From: Ralstonia soli
GTDB lineage: Bacteria > Pseudomonadota > Gammaproteobacteria > Burkholderiales > Burkholderiaceae
Assembly: GCF_023955655.1 (NCBI RefSeq)
Contig: NZ_JAMXHT010000007.1
Coordinates: forward strand, 310,001 to 374,000
Length of the DNA: 64,000 bases
Direction of reading: 5' to 3'
The notes under the pieces are model-generated. The model worked only from the letters and a program-made list of their open reading frames with translations. It had not been told where the DNA came from and made no database searches. Position 1 is the first letter of the stretch, and every line of letters begins with the position of its first letter. The position numbers and the translations under genes were made by a program. Positions 40,560 through 58,065 of this stretch are shown here, piece by piece.

Positions 40560-40807
40560 TGCGCTACTCCCGTTGCTGGTCGCGATCGCATCTGGAAGAG
40601 TAGGAGCCAGAATTTTTTGCCGCAATGACTTTTGCGATGCAAACCATGAGAGCTCTGGTACGTCGAGACTGATGCCTTCGTATGCCGGACAATCCACAGC
40701 ACCTAGTCCAATTGCGCAGCACCTTTTCGGACGCAAGCATGCTCGAGCAGCCGTTTCTGGCCGGCAAGTGCCCGCTCGCCGGCCAGAAGTTTGTCACCCT
40801 TCGGCCT

Positions 40808-41005: not shown

Positions 41006-41135
41006 GATCGCTCCGGACGGCCCGCTCCGCTGCAATCAGCGACTCGATACCGTGGGTTAGCGATACGACACCCACCTCATGAAAGACGGCGCACGGTACT
41101 ATCTTCGTCGGCCCTGTCCCGTATATCCCCGTCGT

Positions 41136-42053
41136 ATGGAACTGAAGCAGATCCAGTACTTCATCGCGCTTTTCGAAGAAGGCACCGTCACGCGCGCCGC
41201 CAGACGGCTCAACATCGCGCAACCGGCGCTCAGCATGCAAATCGCCAAGCTCGAAACGGAGATTCGGCAGAAGCTCTTCGAGCGAGGGCCGCACGGCATG
41301 GCGCCGACCGAAGCCGCACGGTTGATGTACCGCCTTTACACGCCGATCATGCGCGACATCGATCACGCACGGGAGCACCTGAGTCGTCGCGATGTCATCG
41401 TGACGGGCCGCGTGTCGCTGGGGATGGTGTCGTCGGAGGCGCAGAGCGTATTGCCCGAATCGCTCGCCCGATTCGATGCGCTTTTCCCGCAAGTCGAAGT
41501 CTCCGTTGCCGATGGCTTCAGCGCGCAACTGATCGACGCTGTCGAATCTGGCCGGCTCGATGCCGCCATCATCAACAAACCGCGCGGACGGCTGACGCTT
41601 CACGTAGAGCCTTTGCTCGTCGAAGAAATGGTGCTGGTGACGAGCGTGGTGCACGGCCCAGAACTGCCCGATGCGATCAATCTCACGCAGCAGTCGGGCA
41701 TCGAATTCGTGTTGCCCACGCGCCGCAACGGCCTGCGCGGCGCGCTCGATGCCGCGCTGATGGCGGCCGACGTCGTCATCCAACCGAAGTTCGAGATCGA
41801 TCTGCTCAGCACCATCGTGCAGTTCGTTGAGCAGAGCAGTGTCGCCACAATCCTGCCGCGCGTCGTGGTGCAGGCGAAAGTGGACGAAGGGCGCTTGCGC
41901 GCACGCACGATCGCGTCGCCGCCGATTGTGCGACACATCATTCAGGTGACGCATCCGAAGCGGCCGATCGGGCCTGCCGCGCAGGCATTGATCGCGATCA
42001 TCACCGAGGAAATCCGGCGCGTGACGGCGGGCGCGCCGGCGCTCTCGCCGTAA
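41136..42053 (+). CDS. hmfR1: LysR-family regulator, HmfR1-type
   Basis: A 305-residue LysR regulator. The winged helix is at residues 1-60 (IQYFIALFEEGTVTRAARRL), followed by the effector domain. It is a clear paralogue of the LysR protein at 55228: both start with M-D/E-LKQIQYFIALFE and share HGMAPT, INKPR and the VLPT-(R/K)RxGLRG block. Two LysR genes flank the furan-degradation cluster of Cupriavidus basilensis as well, hence the symbol. It is convergent with the minus-strand hydroxylase gene (15 bp between stops), so it probably acts at the operon promoter about 13 kb away. The inducer is expected to be a furan acid or its CoA ester. Confidence 0.78.
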   Translation: MELKQIQYFIALFEEGTVTRAARRLNIAQPALSMQIAKLETEIRQKLFERGPHGMAPTEAARLMYRLYTPIMRDIDHAREHLSRRDVIVTGRVSLGMVSSEAQSVLPESLARFDALFPQVEVSVADGFSAQLIDAVESGRLDAAIINKPRGRLTLHVEPLLVEEMVLVTSVVHGPELPDAINLTQQSGIEFVLPTRRNGLRGALDAALMAADVVIQPKFEIDLLSTIVQFVEQSSVATILPRVVVQAKVDEGRLRARTIASPPIVRHIIQVTHPKRPIGPAAQALIAIITEEIRRVTAGAPALSP

Positions 42054-42068
42054 CGATGCGAGCGTGGA

Positions 42069-42773
42069 TCAACCGCGGCGCGGGGTCGTCCGCTCGTGCG
42101 ACGTGCGCGACGCATCGCTGCGCGTGCCAAAGAGCGTATCGCAGATCGGAAACGTGAGATTGAAATTCTGCGTCGCCATCTGCTCGGGATCGTGATGCGT
42201 CACGTGCAGGCGACGCACGGTGTTGATGAACGGCACACGGTCGAGAAACGGACTGTCCGTGACATGCGAGAGCGTGTGCAACCCTTCGTACATCAGGTAG
42301 TACGCGGCCATGGTCAAAAGCGCGATATAGCCTGCATTGCGCGAAAACACGAAGCCGATCAACAAGGCGAGCGGCGTGGCGGCGAGCACGAAAGCGACAG
42401 GCGCAAACGGCGGAAACAGTAGCGCACGCCAGTGCCTCTGTCCCTTGTACTCGAGCGTCACATGCGTGAAAAAGCGATGATGCACGGCGCAGTGACGCTT
42501 GTAGACCATGCTGAAGTATTTGGTCGGCCGATGCAGCACGTACCGGTGCGCGGCCCATTCCGCCCAGTTGCCGAACAGGAAGAGCGGCACGACCGCGAGC
42601 CATTCCGCGAACGTCGGCGCGTGGATCTGCGCGGCGCAATACAGGATCACTGCCGTCGTGAACACGAGCGTGAAGCCCAGATGCATCTCTCCGCGATACC
42701 ACCACGGCGTCGCCTCGACATATTCGTCGCGGAACTTGTAGGATCGCGTGCGAACGTCCTCGTCGTATTTCAT
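42069..42773 (-). CDS. Membrane di-iron hydroxylase, fatty-acid hydroxylase/sterol desaturase superfamily
   Basis: A 234-residue integral membrane protein with four hydrophobic segments and the histidine boxes of this superfamily: HRYVLHR (residues 76-82), HCAVHH plus FFTH (94-104), HTLSH (about 165) and HVTHHDPE (about 188). Such proteins bind a di-iron centre and insert oxygen into, or desaturate, hydrophobic substrates. It is the last minus-strand gene of the furan cluster, 73 bp after the MFS transporter. No role for such an enzyme in furfural/HMF breakdown is known to me; it could act on a furan, a membrane lipid (stress protection) or be a passenger. Confidence 0.8.
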   Translation of the reverse strand: MKYDEDVRTRSYKFRDEYVEATPWWYRGEMHLGFTLVFTTAVILYCAAQIHAPTFAEWLAVVPLFLFGNWAEWAAHRYVLHRPTKYFSMVYKRHCAVHHRFFTHVTLEYKGQRHWRALLFPPFAPVAFVLAATPLALLIGFVFSRNAGYIALLTMAAYYLMYEGLHTLSHVTDSPFLDRVPFINTVRRLHVTHHDPEQMATQNFNLTFPICDTLFGTRSDASRTSHERTTPRRG

Positions 42774-42846
42774 GATGAGCGTCTCCTGTTTTTTCTACCG
42801 GAAGATGCGGGCGCGTTCTTCGCGCGCCCGGTCGTGACTGCACGCT

Positions 42847-44223
42847 TCAGGACGGATTGCGCGCCGCGCTGTTCTCGAGCTTGCCGAGCGTCTCGGGCAC
42901 GACAAACGCGCCCACGAGGAAGATCACGCTGATTGCGCCGACGAAGATGGCGAGCGTCGACGGCAGCTGGCTGGCGTCCTTGGCGACCAGTGAAACGAAG
43001 GTCGGCATCATCCCGCCGATGGCAAAGCCGATGTTCCATGAAAGGCCGGTGCCGGTCGCGCGGATCGCAGTCGGGAATCGCTCGTTCAGGAAAATCAGGA
43101 TCGGCGCGTAGCCCGCGCTGCCGAGCGCGGAAAGCAGCACCGCGTACACGCCGATCATCGTGATGCTCTGCGCGGTGGGCAGCAGCAGGAACAGCCCGGG
43201 CAGTGCGATCAACCGGATGATGCCGATCCACACGAAAGTGCTTTTGCGCCCAATGAACGTGCTCAAATGCCCGGCCGCAACCGATGCGGCCACCACCGCG
43301 ATGCTGCAGATCATCAGGATCGCTGCGGCCGCGCCGTTCGGCGCATGGCTCACGACCTTGAGGAACGTCGGCAGATAGCCTGACGTGAGGTAGTAGCCGC
43401 TGCCGCCGCCCACGGTGAGCAGCAGGTTCACGAACAGCACGCCCCGATAGTCGCGCGAAAAGAGCGTGCGAATGGGCGAGCGCACGACTTCGACCGGCGC
43501 GGTTTTGATCTGTGCGGCGGCTTTGGCGGCTTTTTCCGCGGCGAGCTTCTTCCACAGCGGCGATTCTTCAAGGCCGTTGAACACGAACAGACCGAGCACC
43601 GAACTCAAGATTCCGGTGAAGAACATGCAGCGCCAGCCCCATGCGTCGAAGAGCTCGCCGGGAAAGAGCGACGACATCGCGAGATACGTGAGCGACGCGA
43701 GCAACGCGCCAAGGCCTGCGCCGCCGCCCCCGATCAGCCCGGACACCGCGCCGCGATACTTCGGCGCGACAGATTCGGTACCGATCGTATGCGTCGATGC
43801 CACCACGCCGCCGACGAACACGCCCTGCACGAGACGCAGCAGCAAGAAGAGAATCGGCGCGACGAGACCCACCTGCGCGACGGTCGGCAGCACGCCGAAC
43901 GCCGCCGTCGAAAGCCCGACGCCGACGACCGCGACGATCATCGCACCCTTGCGGCCATGACGGTCGGCATAAGAGCCGAACAGCGCGGAACCGAGCGGGC
44001 GCATCAGCAGCGTCACCGCGAAGGACGCGTACACCGCCGCTAGCGAGAGCATCGCGTGTTCGGACGGAAAGAACAGACGCCCGACAACCGGCGCCACATA
44101 CAACAATACGAACAGGTCGAACAGGTCGAGGGCCCAGCCGAGGCACGAAGCCATCACGGCGCCCATAATCTGGCGCTGATTAACCGGAAGCACGGCGGTC
44201 GCGTCTTGCGTTGCTACGGACAT
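42847..44223 (-). CDS. hmfT: MFS transporter of the furan-catabolic cluster
   Basis: A 458-residue major-facilitator protein (metabolite:H+ symporter type) with 12 predicted helices. The loop 2-3 motif GSYADRHGRKGAMI and the following MFS blocks (VSGLIGGGGAGLGALLAS, YLPTFLK, RFPTAIRATGTGLSWNIG) are present. The start at 44223 has AAGGAG exactly 6 nt upstream; the longer frame from 44244 would begin inside that site. It lies between hmfH and the hydroxylase gene. By position and family it should import furoate, furandicarboxylate or a similar acid; the ligand is inferred. Confidence 0.83.
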   Translation of the reverse strand: MSVATQDATAVLPVNQRQIMGAVMASCLGWALDLFDLFVLLYVAPVVGRLFFPSEHAMLSLAAVYASFAVTLLMRPLGSALFGSYADRHGRKGAMIVAVVGVGLSTAAFGVLPTVAQVGLVAPILFLLLRLVQGVFVGGVVASTHTIGTESVAPKYRGAVSGLIGGGGAGLGALLASLTYLAMSSLFPGELFDAWGWRCMFFTGILSSVLGLFVFNGLEESPLWKKLAAEKAAKAAAQIKTAPVEVVRSPIRTLFSRDYRGVLFVNLLLTVGGGSGYYLTSGYLPTFLKVVSHAPNGAAAAILMICSIAVVAASVAAGHLSTFIGRKSTFVWIGIIRLIALPGLFLLLPTAQSITMIGVYAVLLSALGSAGYAPILIFLNERFPTAIRATGTGLSWNIGFAIGGMMPTFVSLVAKDASQLPSTLAIFVGAISVIFLVGAFVVPETLGKLENSAARNPS

Positions 44224-44315
44224 TTGCATCTCCTTGTGTGTCACCGGGCATCTCTCGATCGCCCTGTGTCGCAGGCACGCTTTTCATGCGCGCTCTTGTC
44301 GAGGTTGAAAAATCG

Positions 44316-46040
44316 TCAGTGCGCGGCGGCGAACAGCGGTGCCACGCTCGCCCGTCGCTGGGCAACCATCGCATCGGCGATTTTCTCGGCGATCATGATG
44401 GTGGGTATGTTCGTATTCGCCGATGGCAGTCGCGGCATCAGCGATGCATCCACGACGCGCAGCCCGCGCGTGCCTCGCACGCGGCCTTCGGTGTCGGTGA
44501 CGGCGTCGCGGTCCTGCGCGCCACCCATGCGGCAAGTGCCGCTCGCATGCCACACACCGAACACGTTCGCGCGAATGAAATCGGCGAGCGCGCGGTCGTC
44601 GTGGAGCAGCGAAGCCATCTTCAGACCGCGCGTAAAGAAGCGTTCGATCAGCAGACGCCGTAGCGGCGCCGGTGTGTCGAGCAGCGCGCCGAGGATCGAA
44701 GTCAAAAGCGCATTGCCTTCGCCGACCTTGCTCAGCGCCTTCACGCGCGGCGAGAAAGCCGCCGGAAAAAAGTCGCGCGCATCGCGTCCCAGACCCGATG
44801 CATCGACAATGCCCGCCAGCACGCGCACGCCCGCGGCGAGCCGTTGCAGATCGCGTTCGTCATCGAGCAGATTCAGATCGACGCGCGGTGCGGCGGCCGC
44901 ATCGGGCGAGGTCAACTGCACGCGGCCACGCGAGTAAGGCCGGTTGCACCACAGGAAGAAGAGGCCGAGCCGGTTGCCGAGCGCATGCCACGCGGCGCGC
45001 GTCGCGCTCGACAGATACAGGTCCGACTCGTCGCAGCCCGTGACGCCCGAACTCATGCGGGCGGCCATCATGCTGGCGCGGCGTCGCGCGAGCGGCATGC
45101 GAAAGCGCGGCTCGAGAAAATGACAGAACGTGAGCGACGGATGATCCTGCAGATTGCGCCCGACGCCCGGCAAATCCACCGTACATGCGATACCCATCGC
45201 CCCGAGTTGGCCCGCATCGCCGATGCCGGCGCGCATCAGCATCGCCGGGGACTGCAGTGCGCCCGCGCTCAGCACGACTTCGCTCGCATCGAAACGCACG
45301 CGCTCGCCGTTCGCCGCAATCGCGACGACACCGCTCGCCGTCGTGCCTTCCATCACGATGCGTTCGACGCGCAGATTCGAATGGATACTGAGATTCGGGC
45401 GTTGGCGCGTGGCTGCATCGAGGTAGGCGATGGCCGTCGATACCCGCTTATCGTCGATGTTGGAGAACGCGCCCGGAAAAAAGCCGTCGCCGAATTCGCC
45501 GTTCTGATCCTGCAATTCAGGAAAGCCATTGGCGCGCAAACCCTTGGCGAACGCATGACAGAAGGCGGGCCAGTCTTTCGGCATGATGCGGCGGATTGGG
45601 ACGGGACCATCGCTGCCGTGCAGTTCGCCGCCGGGAAAGTCGACGTCGCGTTCGAGCTTTCGGAAGTACGGCAGCACGTCGCGCCATGACCAGCCATCGG
45701 CGCCGCTGGCGGCCCATTCGTCGTAATCGCGCGGCAGGCCACGATTGCCTGACTGCACGTTGATGCTCGACCCGCCGCCCATCACGCGGCCCTGTTCGTA
45801 GACGCGCGGTGCGGCGCCCCGGGTGGCCTTCGCCTTGAGATCGGGCCAGATGTACGTGTCGCCGCAGAAGACCGGGATCGGATAGCTGTCGAGGATGGCC
45901 GCAGGCACTGCACCAGGCGGCGTGTCGGCGCCGGCCTCGATCAGCGCGACGCGCACAGTCGGCGTCGCCGACAGCCGATTCGCGAGCACGCATCCCGCCG
46001 AGCCGCCGCCCACGATCACATAGTCGAAGCGATCCGTCAC
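44316..46040 (-). CDS. hmfH: GMC oxidoreductase, HMF/furfural oxidoreductase
   Basis: A 574-residue FAD-dependent alcohol/aldehyde oxidoreductase of the glucose-methanol-choline family. FAD-binding DYVIVGGGSAGCVLANRL is at residues 5-22, the GMC signature GRVMGGGSSINVQSGNRG at about residue 84, and the second signature GALQSPAMLMRAGIG near 255. The active-site His is in VWHASGTCRMGG (about 497) and its Asn partner in ANTNIPT (about 540). In Cupriavidus basilensis HmfH oxidises HMF stepwise to 2,5-furandicarboxylate and can oxidise furfural. The name rests on this enzyme lying beside furoyl-CoA and UbiD/UbiX genes; alone, choline or another alcohol would be possible. Confidence 0.85.
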   Translation of the reverse strand: MTDRFDYVIVGGGSAGCVLANRLSATPTVRVALIEAGADTPPGAVPAAILDSYPIPVFCGDTYIWPDLKAKATRGAAPRVYEQGRVMGGGSSINVQSGNRGLPRDYDEWAASGADGWSWRDVLPYFRKLERDVDFPGGELHGSDGPVPIRRIMPKDWPAFCHAFAKGLRANGFPELQDQNGEFGDGFFPGAFSNIDDKRVSTAIAYLDAATRQRPNLSIHSNLRVERIVMEGTTASGVVAIAANGERVRFDASEVVLSAGALQSPAMLMRAGIGDAGQLGAMGIACTVDLPGVGRNLQDHPSLTFCHFLEPRFRMPLARRRASMMAARMSSGVTGCDESDLYLSSATRAAWHALGNRLGLFFLWCNRPYSRGRVQLTSPDAAAAPRVDLNLLDDERDLQRLAAGVRVLAGIVDASGLGRDARDFFPAAFSPRVKALSKVGEGNALLTSILGALLDTPAPLRRLLIERFFTRGLKMASLLHDDRALADFIRANVFGVWHASGTCRMGGAQDRDAVTDTEGRVRGTRGLRVVDASLMPRLPSANTNIPTIMIAEKIADAMVAQRRASVAPLFAAAH

Positions 46041-46072
46041 CTGTCTCCCCCTTATGTTCGCCGCGCGGCGTA

Positions 46073-46879
46073 TCAGGAACCGCGAAACACCGGCTTGCGC
46101 TTTCCGTGGAACGCTTCCACGCCCTCGCGGAAATCGTCAGACGCGCGCAGCCGGCTATAGCAATGCCCTTCGAGTTCGATCGCAATCGAGAGCGGCGAGT
46201 CTTCCGTATCGTTCAGCAGCTTCTTCGCGGTGCGCTGTGCGAGCGGCGAGAACGCGCGCAGTTCGTCGACGAGCGCATCGGTTGCCGATTCGAGTTCCGC
46301 GTCCGCGACGTAATCGACCGCGATGCCCCACTCGTACGCCTGCTTGCCCGGAATGCGGCGCGAGCGCATCACAATGTCCTTCGTGCGGCCGATGCCGACC
46401 ATCGACTGCAGACGCGCCGAGCCGCCTGAGCCGGGAATCTGGCCGAGCTTCTGCTCCGGCAGCGCATAGAAGGTCGTATCGGTGACGATGCGGAAATCGC
46501 ATGCCAGCGACAACTCGAAGCCCACGCCGAAGCAGAAGCCGCGATTTGCCGCGATCACCGGCTTCGAGCACCGTGCGGGCGCCGCGATGTTCCACGCGAG
46601 CTTCGATACGTGCTCCGGCGAGGCTTCCAGAAAGCCCTTGATGTCACCGCCGCTCGAAAAATGCTCGCCCTTCGCGCGCACGACGACCACGCGCACGCGG
46701 TCGTCCTCGTCGAGGGCTTCGAACACGGCGCGCAACTGCTCGCGTGCGTGCATCGAAATGACGTTGAACGGCGGCCGATGCAGGATGATGTCGGCACGCT
46801 CGCGCTGCGCGTCGATTTCGACCGAGAAGCCGTCGAGGTCTTGCAGCAGCGTCTGGCCGCGATGGTTGAGATCGCTCAT
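46073..46879 (-). CDS. hmfE: Enoyl-CoA hydratase-family protein, putative 2-oxoglutaroyl-CoA hydrolase
   Basis: A 268-residue crotonase-fold protein. The oxyanion-hole segments are HFSSGGDIKGF and NRGFCFGVGFELSLACDF; the usual catalytic Glu region reads LPEQKLGQIPGSGG. In the furoate pathway HmfE is assigned to the last steps, hydrolysis of the ring-opened CoA ester to 2-oxoglutarate and CoA. It lies between hmfD (6 bp) and hmfH, as part of the same transcript. Assignment by family plus cluster position; the isolated sequence would only be called a hydratase/isomerase. Confidence 0.82.
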   Translation of the reverse strand: MSDLNHRGQTLLQDLDGFSVEIDAQRERADIILHRPPFNVISMHAREQLRAVFEALDEDDRVRVVVVRAKGEHFSSGGDIKGFLEASPEHVSKLAWNIAAPARCSKPVIAANRGFCFGVGFELSLACDFRIVTDTTFYALPEQKLGQIPGSGGSARLQSMVGIGRTKDIVMRSRRIPGKQAYEWGIAVDYVADAELESATDALVDELRAFSPLAQRTAKKLLNDTEDSPLSIAIELEGHCYSRLRASDDFREGVEAFHGKRKPVFRGS

Positions 46880-46885
46880 TGTGGG

Positions 46886-48460
46886 TTACTCCTTGGTGGT
46901 TTCTGTAGGTTGCGCGACCTGCGCTTTCGAATCGGGCGTGTACTCGCCCGCTTGCAGCTTGCGGCGCAGGATCTTGCCGACCGGCGACTTCGGGATGTCG
47001 TCGACGAAGACGTAATCGCGCGGGCGCTTGAAGTTGACGAGGTCGGACTGGCGGCACCATGCATCGAGCGAGTCGGAATCGACGTACTCGCGGCGCTTGA
47101 TGAATGCAACCACGCGCTGACCCCAGCGCTCGTCCTTGACGCCCGCGACCGCGACTTCATCGACGGCGGGATGCAGCGACAACACCGATTCGATATCCAC
47201 CGGCGAGATGTTTTCTCCGCCGCTGACGATCATGTCGTCGACGCGGCCCGTCACGTACAGATCGCCGTCGCGGTCGAGATAGCCCGTGTCCCCGGTGAAG
47301 TACCAGCCATCGCGCAGGCACTTCGCATTCGCGTCCGGGCGATTCCAGTAGCCTTCGAAGGCTTCGTCGCCGAGCAGGTCGACGACGATCTGTCCTTCTT
47401 CGCCGACTTCGGCGATCTCATCGGGCGAGAGCGTATCGAGCTTCACGACGCGCAGCCGCGTATTGATGCCCGCACGGCCCGCGCTGCCGGGTTTCTTTGT
47501 CGCGTCCTGGTCGATGCTGAACGTGTAGACCTCGGACGAGCCGTAGTGATTGACGAAGAGCTCCGGTTCGAACGCGGCCGAGAGGCGCTTGAGCAGGCCA
47601 TCGTTCATCGGTGCGCCCGCGAAGCCGAGCTTTCTGACCGACGACGTGTCCGTACTCGCGAACGCGCTGTCGGCGAGCAGATCGTGATAGAGCGTCGGCA
47701 CGAGGTAGAGGCAGGTGAGCGCGTGCTTCGAGATGCAATCGAGCGCGTGCTTCGCGTTCCAGCGCCGCACGCAGACGAAAAGGCCATCGACGAGCGCCAT
47801 CGCGAGCAGCGAGCGCACGCCCATCGTGTGATAGAGCGGCATCACGCCGAGCGTCCGTTCGCCGCGTCTGTACAGGTTCTGCGCGACGTGCGCTAGCGCA
47901 CCCGCGCGTTCATGCCGATGCCGGCGCGGCACGCCCTTACCTTTTCCCGTCGTGCCGGACGTGTAAAGGATCAGCGAGATGTCATCGGCGGTGGCGTGCG
48001 TCGTGTCGGCCACGTCGCTGCTGCGCGTTCGTTCGACGATGAGCGCGTCGAAGGTGGTTGTGCGACCGGGCGCATCGTCGAGTCCGACGCGCGGCACTTT
48101 TTGCGCGGCGGCGCTCTGCGCGACGGAATCTGCGCTGACGGGTTCGTAGACGATCGCCGTCGCCCCCGCATCGGTCACGCAGTAGTCGACTTCTTCCGGC
48201 TTCGCGCGCCAGTTGAGCGGCACGATCACGATGCCCGCAAACTGTCCGGCCCAATGCAGCGTCGCCATTTCCCAGCGGTTTTGCAGCACAACGAGCAGCC
48301 GGTTGCCGCGTTGCAGGCCGAGCTCGCGCAGGCCATCGGCGACATTCAGGATCATGCGATGCCACTGCGCGTACGTCAGTTGCACATCGCCATCGACGAG
48401 CGCGAGCGCGTTCGGACTGCGCTCGACGCTTTGCAGGAACGTGCGTCCGAGATCAAGCAT
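46886..48460 (-). CDS. hmfD: 2-Furoyl-CoA synthetase (AMP-forming acyl-CoA ligase)
   Basis: A 524-residue acyl-CoA synthetase. The adenylation P-loop LILYTSGTTGKGKGVPRRH is at about residues 163-180, followed by the mid-domain NHYGSSEVYTF, the hinge YFTGDTGYLDRDG and the C-terminal catalytic Lys in KSPVGKILRRKL. It should activate 2-furoate to furoyl-CoA. The gene overlaps the end of hmfC by 8 bp, so it is coupled to the dehydrogenase genes. The YTSGTTGKGKGV(P)RRH sequence is unusual in having Arg-Arg where many ligases have Leu-Thr. Confidence 0.86.
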   Translation of the reverse strand: MLDLGRTFLQSVERSPNALALVDGDVQLTYAQWHRMILNVADGLRELGLQRGNRLLVVLQNRWEMATLHWAGQFAGIVIVPLNWRAKPEEVDYCVTDAGATAIVYEPVSADSVAQSAAAQKVPRVGLDDAPGRTTTFDALIVERTRSSDVADTTHATADDISLILYTSGTTGKGKGVPRRHRHERAGALAHVAQNLYRRGERTLGVMPLYHTMGVRSLLAMALVDGLFVCVRRWNAKHALDCISKHALTCLYLVPTLYHDLLADSAFASTDTSSVRKLGFAGAPMNDGLLKRLSAAFEPELFVNHYGSSEVYTFSIDQDATKKPGSAGRAGINTRLRVVKLDTLSPDEIAEVGEEGQIVVDLLGDEAFEGYWNRPDANAKCLRDGWYFTGDTGYLDRDGDLYVTGRVDDMIVSGGENISPVDIESVLSLHPAVDEVAVAGVKDERWGQRVVAFIKRREYVDSDSLDAWCRQSDLVNFKRPRDYVFVDDIPKSPVGKILRRKLQAGEYTPDSKAQVAQPTETTKE

Positions 48461-48989
48461 GTTCGACCTCCTTCGTGCTTGCCTCGGCCCGGCGGCGCGC
48501 CGCCACGTCGAGCACCGCGGCCACGATGGGCGTGTAGCCTGTACAGCGGCAGATATGCCCCGAGAGCATCTCGCGCACTTGCTCTTCGGACGGATCCGGC
48601 ACGCGCCGCAGATAATCCGCGCACGACATCAAAATCCCCGCCGTGCAGAAGCCGCATTGCAGCGCGTGATGCCGCTGGAACGCCTGCTGCAGGTCGCCAA
48701 GCGTCTGATCGGGCGCAAGGCCTTCGACGGTATCGATACGCCGCCCATCGGCCTGCACCGCGAGCATCAGGCACGAGCGCGCCGCGACGCCATCGACATG
48801 CACGGTACATGCGCCGCACACGCCATGTTCGCAGCCGACGTGCGTGCCCGTCGCGCCGAGTTCGTGCCGGATGAAGTCCGACAGCAGTTCGCGCGGCTCG
48901 CAATCGCCGCTTCGTTCGCGGCCGTTCAGCGTCAGCGCGATGCGCCGCACTTCGCCTTGCCGCATGATGGTGCTCGACATCTTGCTCAC
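48453..48989 (-). CDS. hmfC: Furoyl-CoA dehydrogenase, 2Fe-2S subunit
   Basis: Small iron-sulfur subunit (178 residues) of a molybdenum hydroxylase. The plant-type cluster is held by Cys in GCEHGVCGACTVHVDG and ARSC; the second cluster by CGFCTAGI and HICRCTGYTPI. The GTG at 48989 is preferred: AGGAGG is 4 nt upstream and the codon overlaps the hmfB stop (GTGA). The ATG three codons on is the alternative. It transfers electrons from the Mo centre of HmfA to FAD in HmfB. Confidence 0.9.
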   Translation of the reverse strand: MSKMSSTIMRQGEVRRIALTLNGRERSGDCEPRELLSDFIRHELGATGTHVGCEHGVCGACTVHVDGVAARSCLMLAVQADGRRIDTVEGLAPDQTLGDLQQAFQRHHALQCGFCTAGILMSCADYLRRVPDPSEEQVREMLSGHICRCTGYTPIVAAVLDVAARRRAEASTKEVEHA

Positions 48990-49807: not shown

Positions 49808-52800
49808 GCGTGTCTCCTGAAACGTGCGAGGAGTCTTGCGATCCACGATCCGTGCGCTTGCACGGGCTTGCCCGCCGCCTGCCGCCCAAGCGATTCGAAC
49901 AACTGCTTCAGCACGACCTTCGCCGCGCCTTCGAGCATGCGGCCGCCGACCGCCGCCACCTTCCCTGACACCTGCGCTTCGTAGTCGTATGTAAGCCGCG
50001 TACCGGTGCCTTGCGGCGTCAGTTCGACGAGACCGCTGCCGCGCGCGCTGCCCAGCGGCGAGATTCCCGCGCCAGCGAGCCGAAGGCGGCGCGGCGCATC
50101 GATCTCCGACAAGCCGATACGCGCCTCGAAACGCGCCTTGATCATGCCGACACCGACGGTCACGTCCGCGCGATACTGGTTTGGCGCCGTCTCTTCGAGT
50201 GCGTGACAGCCGGGAATGACGTTCGCGAGTGCCTTCGGATCGAGCAGCACGGCGAACACGGCTTCCGGTGTGGCGGGCAGGTCGACCGCGCCCTGCGCCG
50301 TCAGTGCGCGACCGCCGCCTGGCGTCGCGGGCTTCGTGGTGGGCGCTTCGCGATATTCCGGGCGCGACGGTTCGGGATCGTCCATGCCGATCATCGCCAT
50401 CACGCTGGGCGGCGTGAGCGGCAGACGAATGTCTTCGACGCCGATCATCGCGTCCGCCACCGCATTTGCGATGCACGGCGGCGTGCTCATGTTGTTGCCT
50501 TCGCCCAGACCCTTCGCGCCAAGCGGCGTGAAAGGCGAAGGTGTCTCCAGATGCACGATCAGCGGATCGGGCACTTCGCAGGTCGTCGGCATCAGATAGT
50601 CGGCCAGCGTGCCGGACTGGAAGCTGCCGTCCGCGCCGTAGCGGAACTCTTCCATCAGCGCCGCGCCGACGCCTTGCGCGAACGCGCCTCGAATCTGGCC
50701 ATCGGCGAGTGCGGGATTGAGGATCGTGCCGGCGTCGTGCACGGTCACATATCGGTCGATGCGTACGCTCCCCGTCGCGCGATCCACTTCGACGCCGCAC
50801 ATGTCGAACGCGAAGCCATACGCCGCCGATGTATTGATGCGGTCCTGTTCGTCGGGCGCATCCATGTGCGGTGGCGACCAGAAGACGGTTTCGCGCAGGC
50901 CTGGCTCTTCGCCTTCGGGCAAGAGCGCGGGCGCCCAGTGCGGCGCATTGCTTGCGGCACGCGCGAACGGCAGCGCGCGGTCTTCGGCATCGTGCGGAAA
51001 GACGCGCGCGCCTTCGAAGCGCACGTCGCCTGGCGCACAGTTGAACTGCTTCGCGAGCACGCGCGCGAGCTTGTCGCGCACGCGGGTCGCGGCCAGATGC
51101 ACCGTGCCCGCCACCGCGCCCGCGAAGCGGCTCGAATAATTGCCCGCCGCGACGGACCACGCGTCCTTGTGCGTATCGAATTCGACGTTGACGACGATGT
51201 CCTTCGGATCGAGCCCCAGCACATCGGCGACGACTTGCGCGCACACCGTCATGTGGCCTTGGCCCGCGGGTGTCGATGCGATCGTGACGATCACACCACC
51301 GAGCAGATCGACGCTGACGGTTGCGCTCGCGATCGCGCCGTTCTTGGGCCCGGCTTTTTTGCGTGCGTCGGCGGGCATCACGGTCGTGATGTAGCCCATG
51401 TTCGACACCGACGGCTCGACGATCGCCGCGAAGCCGATGCCATACAGCCGCCCCTCGTTGCGCGCGGCATCGCGGCGCGCAACGAGTTCCCTGTATCCGC
51501 CTTCGTCGAGTGAGCTGCGCAGCGCTTCCTGATAATTGCCCGAATCGAGCAGCGCGCCTGCCGCCGCGCGATACGGAAATGCATCGGCGGGAACAAAGTT
51601 GCGGCGATACACATCGAGCACATCGAGCTTCAGTTCGATCGCGATGCGCTGGATCAGCCGCTCTAGCGCGAAGTACACCTGCGGCCCGCCGAAGCCGCGC
51701 ACGAGCCCCGTCGGCGTCTTGTTCGTCAGCACGACGCGATTGCGCACGAGCAGATTCGGGATCGCGTAAGCGCCCGTCAGGCAGCCGTGCATCCGGTAGA
51801 ACGTCGCGGGCTCGGGCGCGCGCACGTAGCCGCCCACGTCTTCCATTTGATCGTAGGACAGCGCAACGATCCGGCCATCGGCTTCGACGGCCGCTTCTAT
51901 CGTTGAAACACGCGCCGTCGCCGATGTGGCCGCGCTCAGGTGTTCGAGCCGATCCTCGACCCACTTCACCGGCGCGCCCGCCTTGCGCGACGCGAGGCAC
52001 ATCAGCACTACATACGGAAACACCGCCTGCTTCACGCCGAAGCTACCGCCGGAATCGCGCGGCGCCTTGTGACGCAGGCGATTGGCAGGCACGTTCAACG
52101 CCATTGCCATGACGGCATGCAGCGAGAACGGCCCCATGAAGTTCGACGTAACGTCGTAGCCTTCATCGCCTGACAGATACTCGGCGATGACCACACCGCA
52201 CTCAATAGGCGCGCAGGTGTTGCGCGGATAATGCGCAACCAGCTTCACGCGATGCGGCGCGCACTCGAAGGCCGCTTCAGGCTCGCCGTAGCGGAAATGC
52301 CGGTCGCTGATGACGTTGCTGCCGACGCGTTCGTGCAGCACCGGCGCGTCGTCCTTCGCGGCTTGTTCAATCGACCTCACCGGATCGAGCACCGCGTAGT
52401 CGACCTTGATCAGATCGAGCGCGTCTTCCGCGAGCGCACGCGATTCGGCCATCACGACCGCGACCGGCTCGCCGACGTAGCGCACACGGTCCATCGCGAG
52501 CGCCCACTGTTCCATCGGTGATTTCACGCCGACGACGAACGGTCGCGACCACGGACGCAAATCGTCGCGCGTAAGCACGGCGCGCACGCCCGGGAGTTTC
52601 GAAGCAGCTTGCGTATCGATCGACAGGATCTCCGCATGCGCATGCGGCGAACGCAGAATCGCGGCGTGCAGCGTGCCCGGCTTGACAGCGATGTCGTCGC
52701 CATAGCGGCCACGGCCTGTCAGGATCGCCGGGTCTTCGAGGCGCTGCATCGGGCGTCCGATGTGACGCTGCGGTGCGCTCGCTTCGCGCGCCTGGTTGTC

Positions 52801-52848
52801 GGCGACGCGCGCATCCATGTCGGCGAATACGGTTTCGCGCTGATTCAT
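49804..52848 (-). CDS. hmfA: Furoyl-CoA dehydrogenase, molybdenum-binding large subunit with fused CoxG/SRPBCC domain
   Basis: Catalytic subunit that hydroxylates 2-furoyl-CoA at C5 using water. It has 1014 residues from the ATG at 52848, which has AGGAG 7 nt upstream. Residues 1 to about 800 are the usual large subunit: the RHIGRPMQRLEDPAILTGRG start, Mo-cofactor contacts in DSGGSFGVKQ (about residue 270) and RGFGGPQVYFALE, and the active-site Glu in GAKGLGEGNNMS (about residue 780). Residues from about 855 to 1000 form a CoxG-like SRPBCC domain (LPATPEAVFAVLLDPKALAN), normally a separate accessory protein. The gene starts 4 bp after ubiX. Confidence 0.88.
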   Translation of the reverse strand: MNQRETVFADMDARVADNQAREASAPQRHIGRPMQRLEDPAILTGRGRYGDDIAVKPGTLHAAILRSPHAHAEILSIDTQAASKLPGVRAVLTRDDLRPWSRPFVVGVKSPMEQWALAMDRVRYVGEPVAVVMAESRALAEDALDLIKVDYAVLDPVRSIEQAAKDDAPVLHERVGSNVISDRHFRYGEPEAAFECAPHRVKLVAHYPRNTCAPIECGVVIAEYLSGDEGYDVTSNFMGPFSLHAVMAMALNVPANRLRHKAPRDSGGSFGVKQAVFPYVVLMCLASRKAGAPVKWVEDRLEHLSAATSATARVSTIEAAVEADGRIVALSYDQMEDVGGYVRAPEPATFYRMHGCLTGAYAIPNLLVRNRVVLTNKTPTGLVRGFGGPQVYFALERLIQRIAIELKLDVLDVYRRNFVPADAFPYRAAAGALLDSGNYQEALRSSLDEGGYRELVARRDAARNEGRLYGIGFAAIVEPSVSNMGYITTVMPADARKKAGPKNGAIASATVSVDLLGGVIVTIASTPAGQGHMTVCAQVVADVLGLDPKDIVVNVEFDTHKDAWSVAAGNYSSRFAGAVAGTVHLAATRVRDKLARVLAKQFNCAPGDVRFEGARVFPHDAEDRALPFARAASNAPHWAPALLPEGEEPGLRETVFWSPPHMDAPDEQDRINTSAAYGFAFDMCGVEVDRATGSVRIDRYVTVHDAGTILNPALADGQIRGAFAQGVGAALMEEFRYGADGSFQSGTLADYLMPTTCEVPDPLIVHLETPSPFTPLGAKGLGEGNNMSTPPCIANAVADAMIGVEDIRLPLTPPSVMAMIGMDDPEPSRPEYREAPTTKPATPGGGRALTAQGAVDLPATPEAVFAVLLDPKALANVIPGCHALEETAPNQYRADVTVGVGMIKARFEARIGLSEIDAPRRLRLAGAGISPLGSARGSGLVELTPQGTGTRLTYDYEAQVSGKVAAVGGRMLEGAAKVVLKQLFESLGRQAAGKPVQAHGSWIARLLARFRRHA

Positions 52849-52852
52849 GACG

Positions 52853-53467
52853 TTACTCCTCACGTGCGGCGCGGCCGCCGAATTCATCGGCGAGACCGCT
52901 CCAGCGGCGCGTAATTTCGTGGTGCTCGATGCCGAACAGATCGAGAATGCGACCGACCGTGTGATCGACCACGTCGTCGATGGTCTGCGGATGCGCGTAA
53001 AACGCGGGCACCGGCGGCATCACGATCGCGCCCATTTCCGTGGCGAGCGTCATGTTGCGCAGATGCGCGAGATTGAGCGGTGTTTCGCGCGCGACCAGCA
53101 CGAGGCGGCGGCGCTCCTTGAGCATCACATCGGCGGCGCGCGTCAGCAGGTTGTCCGCGAAGCCGTTCGCGACGCCCGCGAGCGTTTTCATCGAGCATGG
53201 AGCGATTACCATGCCTTCGGTCAGAAACGATCCGCTCGCCACGGCCGCGCCGATATCACGCACGTTGTGCACGACATCGGCAACGGCCTCGAGATCACCC
53301 CGCGCGAGGCCGAGTTCCTGTGCGGCCGTCACCGCGCCCGACAACGACACGATGAGATGCGTCTCGTGGGTGCCGAGCCGGCGCAATGCGGCGAGCAAAC
53401 GCACGCCGATCCTCGCGCCGCTTGCGCCCGAAATGCCGACGACGATGCGCTTCTTTCGTTCAGCCAT
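52853..53467 (-). CDS. hmfG: UbiX-family flavin prenyltransferase
   Basis: A 204-residue enzyme that makes prenylated FMN, the cofactor of the UbiD-type decarboxylase next door. The FMN/phosphate motif is VGISGASGARIG at the N-terminus, followed by APCSMKTLAGVANGFADNLL and the Arg-rich LKERRRLVLVARETPLN. The true start is the ATG at 53467, which overlaps hmfF by 8 bp; a longer frame running back to 53644 lies inside hmfF. In Cupriavidus basilensis HmfG accompanies HmfF in furandicarboxylate decarboxylation. Confidence 0.9.
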   Translation of the reverse strand: MAERKKRIVVGISGASGARIGVRLLAALRRLGTHETHLIVSLSGAVTAAQELGLARGDLEAVADVVHNVRDIGAAVASGSFLTEGMVIAPCSMKTLAGVANGFADNLLTRAADVMLKERRRLVLVARETPLNLAHLRNMTLATEMGAIVMPPVPAFYAHPQTIDDVVDHTVGRILDLFGIEHHEITRRWSGLADEFGGRAAREE

Positions 53468-54953
53468 GATCGCGCGACAGATAGGCGTCGAACGCGCTGT
53501 TGTCAGCGGCGACGAGTGCATGAAGGTCGACCGTGTCTTGCCCCGGTATGTGCACACGCGTGAACACATGCGCGGGATACACGACAGGGCGCGTCGCATC
53601 GAGACCCATCTTCGCGCTGACGCCTTGCAGGTGCGACGGCGCATCGTCGGGCTGACCGACCGTCGTGGACGGATCGAGCGGCGAACCTTGCGCGCCTGCT
53701 ATCACGACCAGATCGCGGTCTGCCTGGAAGCGCGTCGCGATCGCCCATTCGATTTCGGCGGGATCGTGCACGTTCACATCGGTATCGACGACGACGACCT
53801 GCTTGATGTCGTAATGCGCGCCGAACGCGCACAGGATGACGTTCTTCGCTTCGCCTTCGCGCTTCTTGTCGAATTGCACCCACAGGTGATAGCGGCACAC
53901 GCCGCCCACCGACAGATGCACGTCCTTCACGGCGGGATGACTACGCTGAAGATGCGCGAGCAACGTGGCTTCACGCGGAATCGCGCCGAGCAGCAGATGC
54001 TCCATTTCGGCGGGCACGATCGTATGAAAGATCGGATTGCGCCGATGCGTGACGGCCGTCACTTCGATGACTTCGCGTGCTTCCTTCGCGCTGTAGTACT
54101 TGGGAAATTCGCCGAACGGGCCTTCCGGCTCGCGCACGTTGGGCAGAATGCGCCCTTCGATGACGATCTCCGCAAACGCCGGCGCGTGCACGCCGTTCGT
54201 CACGCATCGCGCGACAGGCAGCGGCGCACCGTGCAGCGCGCCCGCGATTTCGAGTTCGTCGTGATCAATTGGCGTAATCGCTTGCGACGCGAGCATCGTC
54301 AGGGGATCGACACCAATCACGATGGCGACGTCGAGCGCATCGCCCGCGGCTTCCGCGTCTCGCTGGAACGCGTAGAGATGACGCGGCAGCAGCAGGATCG
54401 CCATGCGATCGGGGCCGTGCACCTGAATTCGGTTGATCGAGACGTTCTGCACGCCGGTGCGCGGATTGCGGGCGATCACGAGACCAGCGGTGATGTACGG
54501 GCCGTTGTCGTGTTCGCTGTGCGTGGGAATGGGCAGCAGCGCGTGGAGATCGATACCGCTCGTATGCAGCACTTGCTGACAGGGCGCGTCTTCACGTTGA
54601 ATCAGTTTCGATGCGATCGGCGCTGCGGCCGCAGCGGAAAAATGCGCGAGCAGCGCTGATTCATCGACGCCCATCGCTTCCGCGATCCACGCGCGCTTCG
54701 ACATGAAGCCGCTCACGACGGGCATCGCATGTCCGCGCGGCTGCGTAAAAAATGCAGCTTGTTCGCCGTCGAGGCGCTTTGCAATGGCGGCGAGTTCGTG
54801 CTCGAGCGCGACGGGCTTGTCGATCGTCGCGACACGGCCGGTTTTCGCGAGATGCGCGAGCCAGTCGCGCAGCGACAGCGAGCCGGTGTCAGCGTGGTCC
54901 CGTGCCCAGGTGAATGAGGGAATGCCGTGCGTTGCGGCATCGCGAGTGTTCAT
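53460..54953 (-). CDS. hmfF: UbiD-family 2,5-furandicarboxylate decarboxylase
   Basis: A 497-residue prenyl-FMN-dependent decarboxylase. Conserved blocks are SINRIQVHGPDRMAI (with the catalytic Arg), the acidic PEGPFGEF loop with the two catalytic Glu, and the C-terminal KMGLDATRP. It would convert 2,5-furandicarboxylate to 2-furoate, joining HMF breakdown to the furoate route. The ATG at 54953 has GGAG 6 nt upstream and is preferred over 54965. It is the first gene of the hmf operon on the minus strand. UbiD enzymes are specific but look alike, so the substrate comes from the cluster. Confidence 0.87.
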   Translation of the reverse strand: MNTRDAATHGIPSFTWARDHADTGSLSLRDWLAHLAKTGRVATIDKPVALEHELAAIAKRLDGEQAAFFTQPRGHAMPVVSGFMSKRAWIAEAMGVDESALLAHFSAAAAAPIASKLIQREDAPCQQVLHTSGIDLHALLPIPTHSEHDNGPYITAGLVIARNPRTGVQNVSINRIQVHGPDRMAILLLPRHLYAFQRDAEAAGDALDVAIVIGVDPLTMLASQAITPIDHDELEIAGALHGAPLPVARCVTNGVHAPAFAEIVIEGRILPNVREPEGPFGEFPKYYSAKEAREVIEVTAVTHRRNPIFHTIVPAEMEHLLLGAIPREATLLAHLQRSHPAVKDVHLSVGGVCRYHLWVQFDKKREGEAKNVILCAFGAHYDIKQVVVVDTDVNVHDPAEIEWAIATRFQADRDLVVIAGAQGSPLDPSTTVGQPDDAPSHLQGVSAKMGLDATRPVVYPAHVFTRVHIPGQDTVDLHALVAADNSAFDAYLSRDHG

Positions 54954-55227
54954 CAGCGTCTCCATCTATGCGCGGCACTGTAGCGAGCGCATGGGATGGA
55001 GCGTAGCCAGATCACCCCATAAGATCTAATACTGTTTTCTGATGCGCTGAATCATTTCTGCTTATATCGGTGTTCCCCCGGATGACAGCGCTCGTGTCGT
55101 TTCGTATCAATGTATCGCTCTACATGCTTAGAAAGCAGGAGCATGAAGAATCTGCGCCCTGCCTGCATGCGGGTAGCGGGATGATAATGGCGACACACAT
55201 TATTAGTGTCTCTGATGCCCCGGAAAA
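54954..55227. promoter_or_regulatory. Divergent control region of the hmf operon and hmfR2
   Basis: A 274-bp gap with no gene, AT-richer than the flanking coding sequence. It must hold the promoter of the ten-gene minus-strand run (hmfF to the hydroxylase) and of the hmfR2-ald pair. The dyad at 55184-55203 is its clearest element. Confidence 0.7.
55184..55203. promoter_or_regulatory. Candidate LysR operator
   Basis: ATAATG-N8-CATTAT, perfect 6-bp arms containing the T-N11-A pattern of LysR recognition sites, 24 bp upstream of hmfR2. It could mediate autoregulation and activation of the divergent hmfF promoter. The binding protein is inferred. Confidence 0.55.
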
Positions 55228-56169
55228 ATGGACCTCAAGCAAATCCAGTACTTCATCGCGCTGTTCGAGGACGGCTCGGTCACCCGTGCCGCGAAGCGCC
55301 TGAACATCGTGCAACCGGCCTTGAGTATGCAGATCGCCAAGCTCGAGGACGAACTGCATCAACAGCTGTTCGAGCGCGGCGCACACGGCATGGCGCCGAC
55401 CGCCGCGGGACGGCTGATGTACCGTCTGTTTTTACCGATCGTACGTGACCTTGCGCACGCGCGGCAGCAACTCGTGCAGCGCGACGAAGTGGTTACGGGG
55501 CATGTCCGCATCGGGCTGATCGCATCGGTGACGGAAAGCGTGCTCGCGGATTCGCTGTCGCGCTTTCACGCGCGTTACCCCGATGTCGAAGTCACCGTCG
55601 CCGATGGCTACAGCGCGACCTTCATCGACTGGGTGGCGGGCGGGCAGCTCGATGCCGCCCTCATCAACAAGCCGCGCGCGCGTCTTTCGCTCGACTCGCG
55701 CCCGCTGCTCGACGAGGAGATGGTGCTTGCCACCAGCGCCGCGCATGGCCCCGACTTGCCGCATGCAATCGAACTCGCGCAATTGCCCCAACTGGAGCTC
55801 GTGCTGCCCACCAAACGTCATGGCCTGCGCGGCGTGCTCGACAGCGCTGCGCAACACGAGGACGTTCTGCTCGCGCCGCGCTTCGAGATCGACGTGCTGT
55901 CGACGATTCTCAAGCTCGTCGAGCACACGCGCTTTGCGACGATCCTACCGCGCATCGTCGTCGAGCGCGCCGCGCGGCACGGCACATTGCGCGCTTGCCC
56001 GATTCTGGCGCCTCGCATCGTGCGGCACATTGTCTGCGTGAGCCATCCGCGCCGCCCGCTGAGCGCGGCGGCAGAAGCCCTGATCGAGATCATCGGCGAC
56101 GAGTTGCACCGCGCGTCGAACATGTCGGGCGACGAGCCCTCACACACCACCAAGGAACGTTCAGCATGA
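55228..56169 (+). CDS. hmfR2: LysR-family regulator, HmfR2-type
   Basis: A 313-residue LysR regulator paralogous to the one at 41136, divergent from the hmf operon. The helix-turn-helix is IQYFIALFEDGSVTRAAKRL and the effector domain contains VTVADGYSATFIDWV and LVLPTKRHGLRG. Its position beside the operon promoter makes it the primary activator candidate. The TGA stop overlaps the ATG of the aldehyde dehydrogenase gene, so regulator and enzyme are translated together. Effector expected to be a furanic acid; not shown by sequence. Confidence 0.8.
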   Translation: MDLKQIQYFIALFEDGSVTRAAKRLNIVQPALSMQIAKLEDELHQQLFERGAHGMAPTAAGRLMYRLFLPIVRDLAHARQQLVQRDEVVTGHVRIGLIASVTESVLADSLSRFHARYPDVEVTVADGYSATFIDWVAGGQLDAALINKPRARLSLDSRPLLDEEMVLATSAAHGPDLPHAIELAQLPQLELVLPTKRHGLRGVLDSAAQHEDVLLAPRFEIDVLSTILKLVEHTRFATILPRIVVERAARHGTLRACPILAPRIVRHIVCVSHPRRPLSAAAEALIEIIGDELHRASNMSGDEPSHTTKERSA

Positions 56170-57605
56170 ACGCACGACACTGGATTGCCGGCGAATGGAC
56201 CGGCACGCCCAACATCGACAGCATCGATCCCGCAACGGGCGAGGCCATCGGCCGGTTCGCCGACGGCGGATCGTGCGAAGCCGATGCCGCCATCGCCGCC
56301 GCGCGCCGCGCGTTCGATCGCACGACATGGGCGCAGGACGCGCGTTTGCGCCAGGACGTGCTGCTCGGCTGGGCGTCGGCGCTCGAAGCCGAACACGACA
56401 CCCTCGCAACGCTGCTCACGCGCGAGAACGGCAAGGCGATCGCACAATCGCGCGGCGAGATTGCAAGCGCGATATCGGAGGTACGCTATTACGCCGGGCT
56501 CGCGCGGCATATTGCCGGGCACGTGCTCGAAGCGGAACCGGGCACGATATCGACGATGCTCCGCGAAGCGGCCGGCGTTGCGGCGATCATCGTGCCGTGG
56601 AATGCGCCCGCCGTGCTGCTCGTGCGCTCGCTCGCACCCGCACTGGCGGCCGGCTGCACGGCGATCGTCAAACCGGCGGCGCAGACGTCACTGCTCACAG
56701 CCGCGATGGTGCGCTGCTTCGAACACACGGCGTTGCCAGAAGGCGCGGTGAACCTCGTCAATGAACGGGGATACGCGGCCAGCCAGCGGCTCGTCGATTC
56801 GCACGGCGTCGATGTGGTGAGCTTCACGGGATCGACGGCGACGGGCAAGAAGATCATGGCCGCCGCCGCCGACAGCATGAAGAAGCTGTCGCTCGAACTT
56901 GGCGGCAAGTCATGCTGCGTCGTCTTCGACGATGCCGATATTGCAGCGATAGCGCCCCGTCTCGCGCGCGCCGCGACGATCATCTCCGGGCAGCAATGTA
57001 CAGCGGCACGCCGGGTGCTGGTTCATGCATCCCGCGCTGCGCAAATGCGCGAGCACCTCGCGTCGGCGCTTGCGTCGCTGAGGGTCGGACCGGGCATCGA
57101 TCGGGCAACAGATATCGGCGCGCTCATCGACGGCACGACGCGCGATGCGGTGGCTCGGACGATCGAGCGCGCGTGCGGGATGGCCGAACGCGTGCTGCTG
57201 CGAGGCACTTGCTCGGGGCACGCGTTTCTGTCGCCGACGCTTGTCGAACATAGCGATCCGAAAGCGTTCTTTTGTCAGGACGAGATCTTTGGCCCGTTCG
57301 TCACGCTGGAAGTCTTTGAGAACGAAATGGAAGCGATCGAGAAAGCGAACGACACGGTCTTCGGGCTCTCGGCAAGCGTATGGACGCACGACGTAGCGCG
57401 CGCATTCCGCGTCGCGCGCGCGCTGCGTAACGGCACTGTGTGGATCAATGACCACAACAAGCTTTTCGCGGAAGCCGAAACGGGCGGGTATCGCCAAAGC
57501 GGACTGGGTCGGCTGCACGGCTACGAGGCGCTTGCGGACTTCACCGAGTTGAAGCATATCTGCATGTCGGCTGGCGTTGCGGAAGGCATCGCACCGTTGC
57601 GGTGA
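56166..57605 (+). CDS. Aldehyde dehydrogenase, probably furfural/HMF-related
   Basis: A 479-residue NAD(P)-dependent aldehyde dehydrogenase. The Rossmann contact VPWNAPAVLLVRSLAPALAA, Glu in LELGGKSCCVVF (about residue 244) and catalytic Cys278 in IISGQQCTA are present, as is the QDEIFGPFV motif. It is coupled to hmfR2 by a 4-bp overlap and would convert furfural to furoate or HMF acid intermediates further, complementing HmfH. It resembles the vdh-encoded enzyme at 3695 only distantly, so it is not a duplicate. Confidence 0.82.
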   Translation: MNARHWIAGEWTGTPNIDSIDPATGEAIGRFADGGSCEADAAIAAARRAFDRTTWAQDARLRQDVLLGWASALEAEHDTLATLLTRENGKAIAQSRGEIASAISEVRYYAGLARHIAGHVLEAEPGTISTMLREAAGVAAIIVPWNAPAVLLVRSLAPALAAGCTAIVKPAAQTSLLTAAMVRCFEHTALPEGAVNLVNERGYAASQRLVDSHGVDVVSFTGSTATGKKIMAAAADSMKKLSLELGGKSCCVVFDDADIAAIAPRLARAATIISGQQCTAARRVLVHASRAAQMREHLASALASLRVGPGIDRATDIGALIDGTTRDAVARTIERACGMAERVLLRGTCSGHAFLSPTLVEHSDPKAFFCQDEIFGPFVTLEVFENEMEAIEKANDTVFGLSASVWTHDVARAFRVARALRNGTVWINDHNKLFAEAETGGYRQSGLGRLHGYEALADFTELKHICMSAGVAEGIAPLR

Positions 57606-57624
57606 ATGGCAGGGAGGCGAGGCA

Positions 57625-57973
57625 ATGGACAGCGTGGGTCTCGAAGTCCTGAAAGGCAGCGCGCGGTGGCTGGCAGACGGGCATCGCGTGCTGCTGGGGA
57701 CCGTGATGAAGACAACGCGTGGACACCGTGATGGAGATGAAGCTCGACGAACGCTGTGCGGTGATCACGTTGACGCACGATCAGAAGCTCGACGATCTCG
57801 CGCTGATGGAAGCGCTGAAAATGCCTGCGTTCTATGTGGGTGCGCTCCGATCGCGTCGCAATAACGCGGCGCGGCGCAAGCGCTTGAAGGAGTTCGATCT
57901 CAACGATGAAGAACTCGCGCACCTGCAAGGCAGCAATGTGCATTCGTCACAGTCGATCAATGTTAGTGACTGA
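57625..57973 (+). pseudogene. xdhC: Truncated and frameshifted xdhC (molybdenum cofactor insertion/sulfuration chaperone)
   Basis: Two pieces of an XdhC-family protein. The first, from the ATG at 57625 behind AGGGAGG, reads MDSVGLEVLKGSARWLADGH then RVLLGTV, an XdhC N-terminus. The second, in another frame from about 57725, reads CAVITLTHDQKLDDLALMEA, FYVGALRSRRNNAARRKRL and EFDLNDEELAHL, the XdhC NAD-like-domain block. The intervening 150-200 residues and the C-terminus are missing (relatives have about 300-370 residues). An intact xdhC would mature HmfA's Mo cofactor, so the decay matters functionally unless another copy exists in the genome. Confidence 0.82.
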
Positions 57974-58065
57974 AACTAAAGTGCCTTCTTCCTTGAGGCT
58001 AGCTTCGGATTTACATTCAACTCTCATTCTGTAAGCAACATACCAAAGGGAGCAAAGAGCCTGGC

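Follow-up and report, generated by a model that had tools for sequence, protein, structure and literature searches.

A stretch of 64,000 nucleotides of Ralstonia soli (contig NZ_JAMXHT010000007.1, positions 310,001 to 374,000; subsequently designated the window) carries a complete hmf cluster for degradation of furfural and hydroxymethylfurfural (HMF), which are toxic by-products of heated plant sugars. Our analysis makes it very probable that this cluster is an acquired catabolic operon in which gene S, encoding a membrane protein of the sterol desaturase/fatty acid hydroxylase superfamily, is a real tenth member and would provide a di-metal oxygenase of the upper pathway, in the branch served by an aldehyde dehydrogenase (ALDH). 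Ten genes in the order hmfF-G-A-B-C-D-E-H-T-S lie on the minus strand, flanked on either side by genes for the paralogous LysR-type regulators R1 and R2 (62% identity), and R2 is followed by the ALDH gene, termed L (Table 1). The core hmf pathway and its cluster are already known, and the pathway of Cupriavidus basilensis HMF14 has been described (excerpts of PMC6678421 and PMC6604932). No paper among the matches listed in our literature search, which did not include the original C. basilensis paper and the 2021 survey of hmf in Proteobacteria, linked a sterol desaturase/fatty acid hydroxylase gene to hmf, and a term search in PMC11144800 gave no match.

Gene S and its association with hmf loci

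S passes the PF04116 profile with 37.5 bits, the curated cut-off being 31. Residues H75, H80, H93, H97, H98, H165, H169, H189, H192 and H193 are invariant in 11 sequences (the S, HmfF and HmfH queries begin at codon 2, which lowers residue numbers by one and hardly changes the scores). S contains each of the histidine boxes H-x4-H, H-x3-HH, H-x3-H and H-x2-HH, which we take to form the di-metal site of the superfamily. A tentative fold match of S is the sphingolipid fatty-acid hydroxylase Scs7p, and neither S nor its profile had a sequence match in the PDB. Values of dN/dS between 0.01 and 0.13 in 12 pairs reveal strong purifying selection. The neighbourhoods of six distant homologues were inspected: two are unannotated, three include a DUF6166 gene, with no furan genes annotated nearby, and one homologue is fused to an SRPBCC domain. 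On a plasmid of C. basilensis, such a fusion of an S-like hydroxylase domain and an SRPBCC domain is encoded at L094:7980-9122, with a LysR gene in divergent orientation. From symbionts of Mimosa, a different superfamily member with a nod box has been described, which reportedly shares less than 40% identity with other bacterial orthologues (excerpt of PMC5789663).

To relate S to hmf, 80 HmfF loci were gathered, 78 of which were covered by the S search (all but L037 and L060). A relative of S with at least 64% identity is present in 39 of these 78 HmfF-positive genomes (26/48 and 13/30), in one case cut by a contig end; S is broken or split in 2 further genomes, and 37 have no S of this type. 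L048, where the gene is broken, was either omitted or scored as S-negative, and L023, where S is split into two frames, was scored as positive or negative. S resides inside the hmf locus in 36 of the 39 S-positive genomes, 27 of which had their layouts read, the others (L020, L021, L026, L027, L029, L030, L053, L057, L079) being placed by contig coordinates only. S is also carried by plasmid pENH92 of Cupriavidus necator NH9. The position of S varies with the lineage: Burkholderia and its relatives have the order T-S-R1, Cupriavidus H-S and Massilia T-S-A, S lies beside L in a metagenome-assembled genome (MAG) of Pandoraea, and MAGs of Polaromonas and Paucibacter exhibit the order ABC transporter-S-short-chain dehydrogenase-L. 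In Dinoroseobacter, an S homologue of 53% identity is located ~10 kb from hmfF, with transposases in between. R1 directly follows T in nine main clusters lacking S (L120-L128). P. tagetis possesses a second pair of R1 and S (L100:2865-4529) besides its full cluster; the 9.5 kb that were read contain no further hmf gene.

Close relatives of S were also sought in two broad samples, one of 399 genomes from the order and one of 398 genomes from the phylum (S cut-off 1e-45 in the latter). The samples overlap by two genomes, one of which is the window's own. Relatives of at least 60% identity occur in 3 genomes of either sample, all of them HmfF-positive, and the other S homologues reach at most 44% identity among the matches listed. 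HmfF itself was detected at an E-value of 1e-100 in 6/399 and 5/398 genomes, respectively. The distance between S and hmfF is 4.1-5.3 kb in the three sampled S-positive genomes other than that of the window.

When 19 intergenic regions between hmfF and R2 were aligned, a block common across genera emerged, in which TGAT-N7-ATCA precedes a stretch resembling AAACAGTATTAG. Searched as TGAT-N7-ATCA-N4-9-TATTA, this composite pattern lies before hmfF in 66 of the 78 testable loci, in L033 as a one-base variant only; 7 of the 12 loci missing it are S-positive with other gene orders. Three Cupriavidus loci (L063, L064, L086) carry the pattern before both hmfF and hmfA, each time adjoining a LysR gene, and the window carries it once (Table 1). 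R2, and perhaps its paralogue R1, would act at TGAT-N7-ATCA before hmfF, the pairing of regulator and operator being a prediction.

In the remaining three S-positive genomes, i.e. Caballeronia concitans (L104), C. zhejiangensis (L156) and Burkholderia sp. E7m39 (L157), S is located outside the main cluster. In each of these loci, a 5' fragment of hmfF together with the promoter side precedes the hmfT 3' end and S, the endpoints differing from locus to locus; a fragment of hmfG is also left in L104, and hmfT matches only weakly in L156 (19 residues). L104 and L157 have an intact composite operator, while the region of L156 aligns without the pattern being found there. In L157, S runs off the contig end and L is retained, though the main cluster of this genome (L032) is devoid of L. 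Absence of S from the main cluster was read for C. concitans (L120) and follows for the other two from the single S match per genome. These loci are deletion derivatives in which the start of the operon is joined to S, a natural experiment that points to S as an independent unit.

The presence of S also follows that of ALDH, as the data suggest. In 74 rows with both states available, 36 have both genes, 28 neither, 4 only S and 6 only ALDH (Fisher 1.5e-10, relatedness ignored). Mapped on the HmfF tree, S undergoes 11 changes and L undergoes 13, and independent pairs are concordant in ~5 cases and discordant in 0 (median p 0.0625). These values include L032 as ALDH-positive, a score assigned after L157 had been seen to retain L; previously, ~4 pairs were concordant and 0 discordant (p 0.125). 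The states of S and ALDH were scored by hand; the ALDH flank was unusable in L065, L043, L052 and L080. Association of S with HmfH is weaker (Fisher 0.012): among 70 loci of at least 13 kb, 34 have both, 5 only S, 18 only HmfH and 13 neither. A role of S as simple replacement of HmfH was rejected, because both genes coexist in 34 of the 70 loci.

Probable acquisition of the hmf island

The hmf operon appears to have been acquired horizontally. Its DNA is 95.5-96% identical to that of Ralstonia sp. SET104 (L006, L096), where the flanks have no match, and ~92-93% identical to that of several Paraburkholderia over 14-16.5 kb of colinear sequence, where the flanks are unrelated. As colinear DNA of this length recurs in Paraburkholderia and in a congener, chance is excluded. 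The segment common to other genera spans 41023 to 57714/57930. HmfF is present in 2 of 16 genomes of the host genus, the host's own included; SET104 is counted as the congener, because the second HmfF-positive genome has the same coordinates as L006. The backbone of SET104 is only ~86-87% identical to the host.

Left of 37933 and right of ~58950, the sequence is common to congeners, mostly with 84-90% identity. The LacI match ends at 37932/37933, and this end lies ~1.6 kb from the right anchor (from 58950-58965) in L143, L145, L147, L148, L149 and L150, revealing an empty site; of these, L149 belongs to the hmf-positive congener, whose cluster is on another contig. In L144 and L146 the right anchor is missing and the two sides are ~11 kb and ~5 kb apart. 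The right anchor is short (~100 bp), which weakens the evidence from the empty site. Its edges are marked by an integrase remnant on the left and a gutted xdhC on the right; two other XdhC_C genes are located elsewhere in the genome (G000:C26, C31). The empty site in relatives, the patchy presence of HmfF and the integrase remnant thus agree with the original prediction, which had placed the cluster on an island. The link it drew to xylose genes elsewhere in the window is weak, since the sugar-transport genes left of the island lie outside of it and are common to congeners without an HmfF match.

Two further genes were noticed inside the island: a SnoaL-like/limonene-epoxide-hydrolase-like gene right of hmf (58066-58488), in a stretch of lower GC content (0.57), and a transglutaminase-like gene in the left part (39373-40284). 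Moreover, hmfT and S (42069-44244) look mosaic. The dS of S is ~1.1 in comparison to P. sacchari (L098), though the whole operon is ~92% identical, and only 0.14 in comparison to the copy of Burkholderia aenigmatica, which points to putative recombination around T-S.

Core enzymes and known systems

The functions expected from the original prediction are all encoded in one block, i.e. UbiD, UbiX, a three-subunit molybdenum (Mo) hydroxylase, ligase, crotonase and GMC oxidoreductase, as are the MFS transporter, the ALDH and the two flanking LysR paralogues. The 'extra hydroxylase' it mentioned was taken to be the PF04116 gene, which is beyond its nine genes F to T. Location of F to T on one strand was confirmed, S being the tenth gene, and the proposed coupled overlaps exist for F/G (8 bp), A/B (4 bp) and C/D (8 bp) but not for E-H (gap of ~32 bp), H-T (71-86 bp) and T-S (73 bp). 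R2 and the ALDH gene overlap by 4 bp, and the remaining gaps on the same strand are at most ~86 bp.

Table 1. Features of the hmf region (window coordinates).
Feature	Position	Strand	Evidence
Acquired island, bounded by the empty site of congeners	37934..58949	.	hmf module proper ~41023-57930
Tyrosine recombinase (integrase), C-terminal remnant	40810..41055	-	PF00589 E 7.1e-8, profile positions 107-166 of 172
R1, LysR-type regulator, convergent with operon	41136..42053 (longer start 41079 possible)	+	Pfam HTH_1, LysR_substrate
S, sterol desaturase/fatty acid hydroxylase superfamily membrane protein	42069..42773	-	PF04116
hmfT, MFS transporter	42847..44244 (start 44244 or 44229)	-	PF07690
hmfH, GMC oxidase	44316..46040	-	4udp HMF oxidase E 1.6e-134
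hmfE, enoyl-CoA hydratase family; 2-oxoglutaroyl-CoA hydrolase by pathway	46073..46879	-	PF00378
hmfD, acyl-CoA (furoyl-CoA) synthetase, AMP-ligase	46886..48460	-	PF00501
hmfC, 2Fe-2S subunit of Mo hydroxylase	48453..48980	-	PF01799, PF00111
hmfB, FAD subunit of Mo hydroxylase	48986..49807	-	PF00941, PF03450
hmfA, Mo-cofactor large subunit	49804..52887 (start 52887 or 52848)	-	PF02738, PF20256
CoxG domain, fused to HmfA C-terminus	49879..50292	-	PF06240 E 1.2e-21, residues 866-1003
hmfG, UbiX flavin prenyltransferase	52853..53467	-	TIGR00421 and NF004685 above cut-off (NCBIfam)
hmfF, UbiD decarboxylase	53460..54965 (start 54965 or 54953)	-	6h6v HmfF E 8.8e-136
Block upstream of hmfF, putative operator plus promoter	55027..55054	-	Alignment of 19 intergenic regions
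R2, LysR-type regulator, divergent from hmfF	55228..56169	+	Pfam
ALDH (L), coupled to R2; PsfA-type by position only	56166..57605	+	PF00171 E 4e-140
xdhC remnant (Mo-cofactor chaperone), large internal deletion	57625..57925	+	Matches residues 1-30 and 215-282 of B. aenigmatica XdhC

In a search of solved structures, HmfF matched the solved HmfF with E-values of 8.8e-136 (6h6v) and 6e-134 (6h6x), as compared to 9.3e-60 for the next UbiD relative and 4.7e-18 for the pyrrole-acid decarboxylase PA0254. His297 has been named as key to the furan specificity of HmfF (excerpt of PMC7976604); this residue, position 296 of the chain by our own count, is conserved at query position 322. HmfH is closest to the HMF oxidase 4udp (1.6e-134) and retains the VWHASG stretch as well as His467, the catalytic residue of that enzyme (excerpt of PMC6604932). 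Homology therefore bears out the assignment as furfural/HMF cluster. The UbiD, Mo hydroxylase and CoA ligase families serve other aromatics too, as would be needed if the cluster degraded another heteroaromatic acid of the pyrrole, indole or benzoate type instead of furans. However, the distance of HmfF to all other solved UbiD enzymes, its conserved specificity residue, the relationship of HmfH to HMF oxidase and the full set of hmf genes make this idea hardly credible.

In the layouts read, a CoxG domain accompanies every locus with an HmfA match, except for L087, where the locus ends within the gene. Excerpts of two papers portray CoxG proteins as quinone-binding electron carriers (PMC13240472) and as membrane anchors not involved in electron transfer (PMC11962113), respectively. 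By analogy, the fused CoxG domain probably ties HmfA to the membrane or to quinones, and any path of electrons drawn from this for the host is a prediction.

All eight functions A to H of C. basilensis HMF14 (hmfABCDE, hmfFGH) are also encoded in the window, as likened by function rather than protein by protein. The original prediction had regarded the order as a distinct arrangement, which does not hold: a plasmid of B. aenigmatica (L088; 86% DNA identity) as well as Paraburkholderia and Caballeronia loci have the same genes in the same order, including S, both LysR genes and ALDH. DNA identity reaches ~93% in Paraburkholderia, and some relatives are devoid of S, ALDH or HmfH. The B. aenigmatica xdhC is annotated as full-length, whereas a remnant is left in the window. 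The hmf/psf system of Pseudomonas umsongensis GO16 shares hmfA-F, hmfT, the ALDH PsfA and a LysR gene with the window but has PsfG in place of HmfH, and no S-like gene appears in the part of its gene table examined (excerpt of PMC12064950).

Plasmid pHTA426 of Geobacillus kaustophilus (L089) has HmfF (51-52% identity), Mo hydroxylase, ligase and MFS transporter in common with the window, whereas its CoxG is encoded by a separate gene in contrast to the HmfA fusion; no S match was found in 25 kb of this region. An R2-like ligand-binding oxidase gene (L089:15312-16187) adjoins the MFS gene there; among di-metal oxidases associated with hmf genes it is the second one noticed, and it is not related to S. 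To our knowledge, no role has been assigned to it. A search for this oxidase (R2lox) on other plasmids returned 33 matches, which, as seen in the best 25 of 33, are the query itself and 32 with less than 60% identity.

Proposed pathway and role of S

The following reactions are taken from the literature on other strains and are predicted for the host. ALDH and HmfH would oxidise HMF and furfural to the acids, and HmfT would import the acid. HmfG would make prenylated flavin mononucleotide (prFMN), with which HmfF would decarboxylate 2,5-furandicarboxylate to 2-furoate. HmfD would convert the latter to furoyl-CoA, followed by hydroxylation through HmfABC and release of 2-oxoglutarate by HmfE. 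S would most likely act on a substituent of the furan ring (CH3, CH2OH or CHO), in the same branch as ALDH, and its substrates are perhaps methylfurans. One specific proposal, which we regard as doubtful, is that S is a new type of methyl-group monooxygenase with an XylM-like role, converting the methyl group of 5-methylfurfural or 5-methyl-2-furoate to a hydroxymethyl group; the product would then be handled by HmfH or a PsfG-like dehydrogenase, ALDH and HmfF. Activity of S as aldehyde oxidase converting HMF to the acid was considered as well.

Members of PF04116 often act on lipids, and S might accordingly be a membrane-lipid hydroxylase that protects the membrane from toxic furans rather than a catabolic enzyme. 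The tentative fold match to Scs7p suits this function, and no dedicated reductase gene was noticed beside S within the window. However, S is tied to HmfF-positive genomes, to the start of the hmf operon and to ALDH, and it adjoins transporter, alcohol- and aldehyde-oxidising genes. A general tolerance gene would be expected in the absence of hmf, too, but close S relatives without HmfF were not found in the samples of 399 and 398 genomes, and we consider protection of membrane lipids to be rather unlikely. That S is a chance passenger of a mobile hmf module, playing no role in furan metabolism, would be compatible with movement of the module as a block and with the lack of S in about half of the HmfF-positive genomes. 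Strong purifying selection, the lineage-dependent positions of S and its retention next to the start of the operon in three deletion derivatives that differ in their endpoints argue otherwise, rendering a mere passenger quite improbable.

S could bear on applications, as engineering of bacteria for lignocellulose hydrolysates and for 2,5-furandicarboxylic acid (FDCA), a plastic monomer, draws on the hmf pathway. A conserved and selected membrane oxygenase in hmf operons could widen the range of furans used or the tolerance conferred. If hydroxylation of methyl groups by S proved true, a third class of sugar-derived furans, those from deoxyhexoses, would join the hmf pathway.

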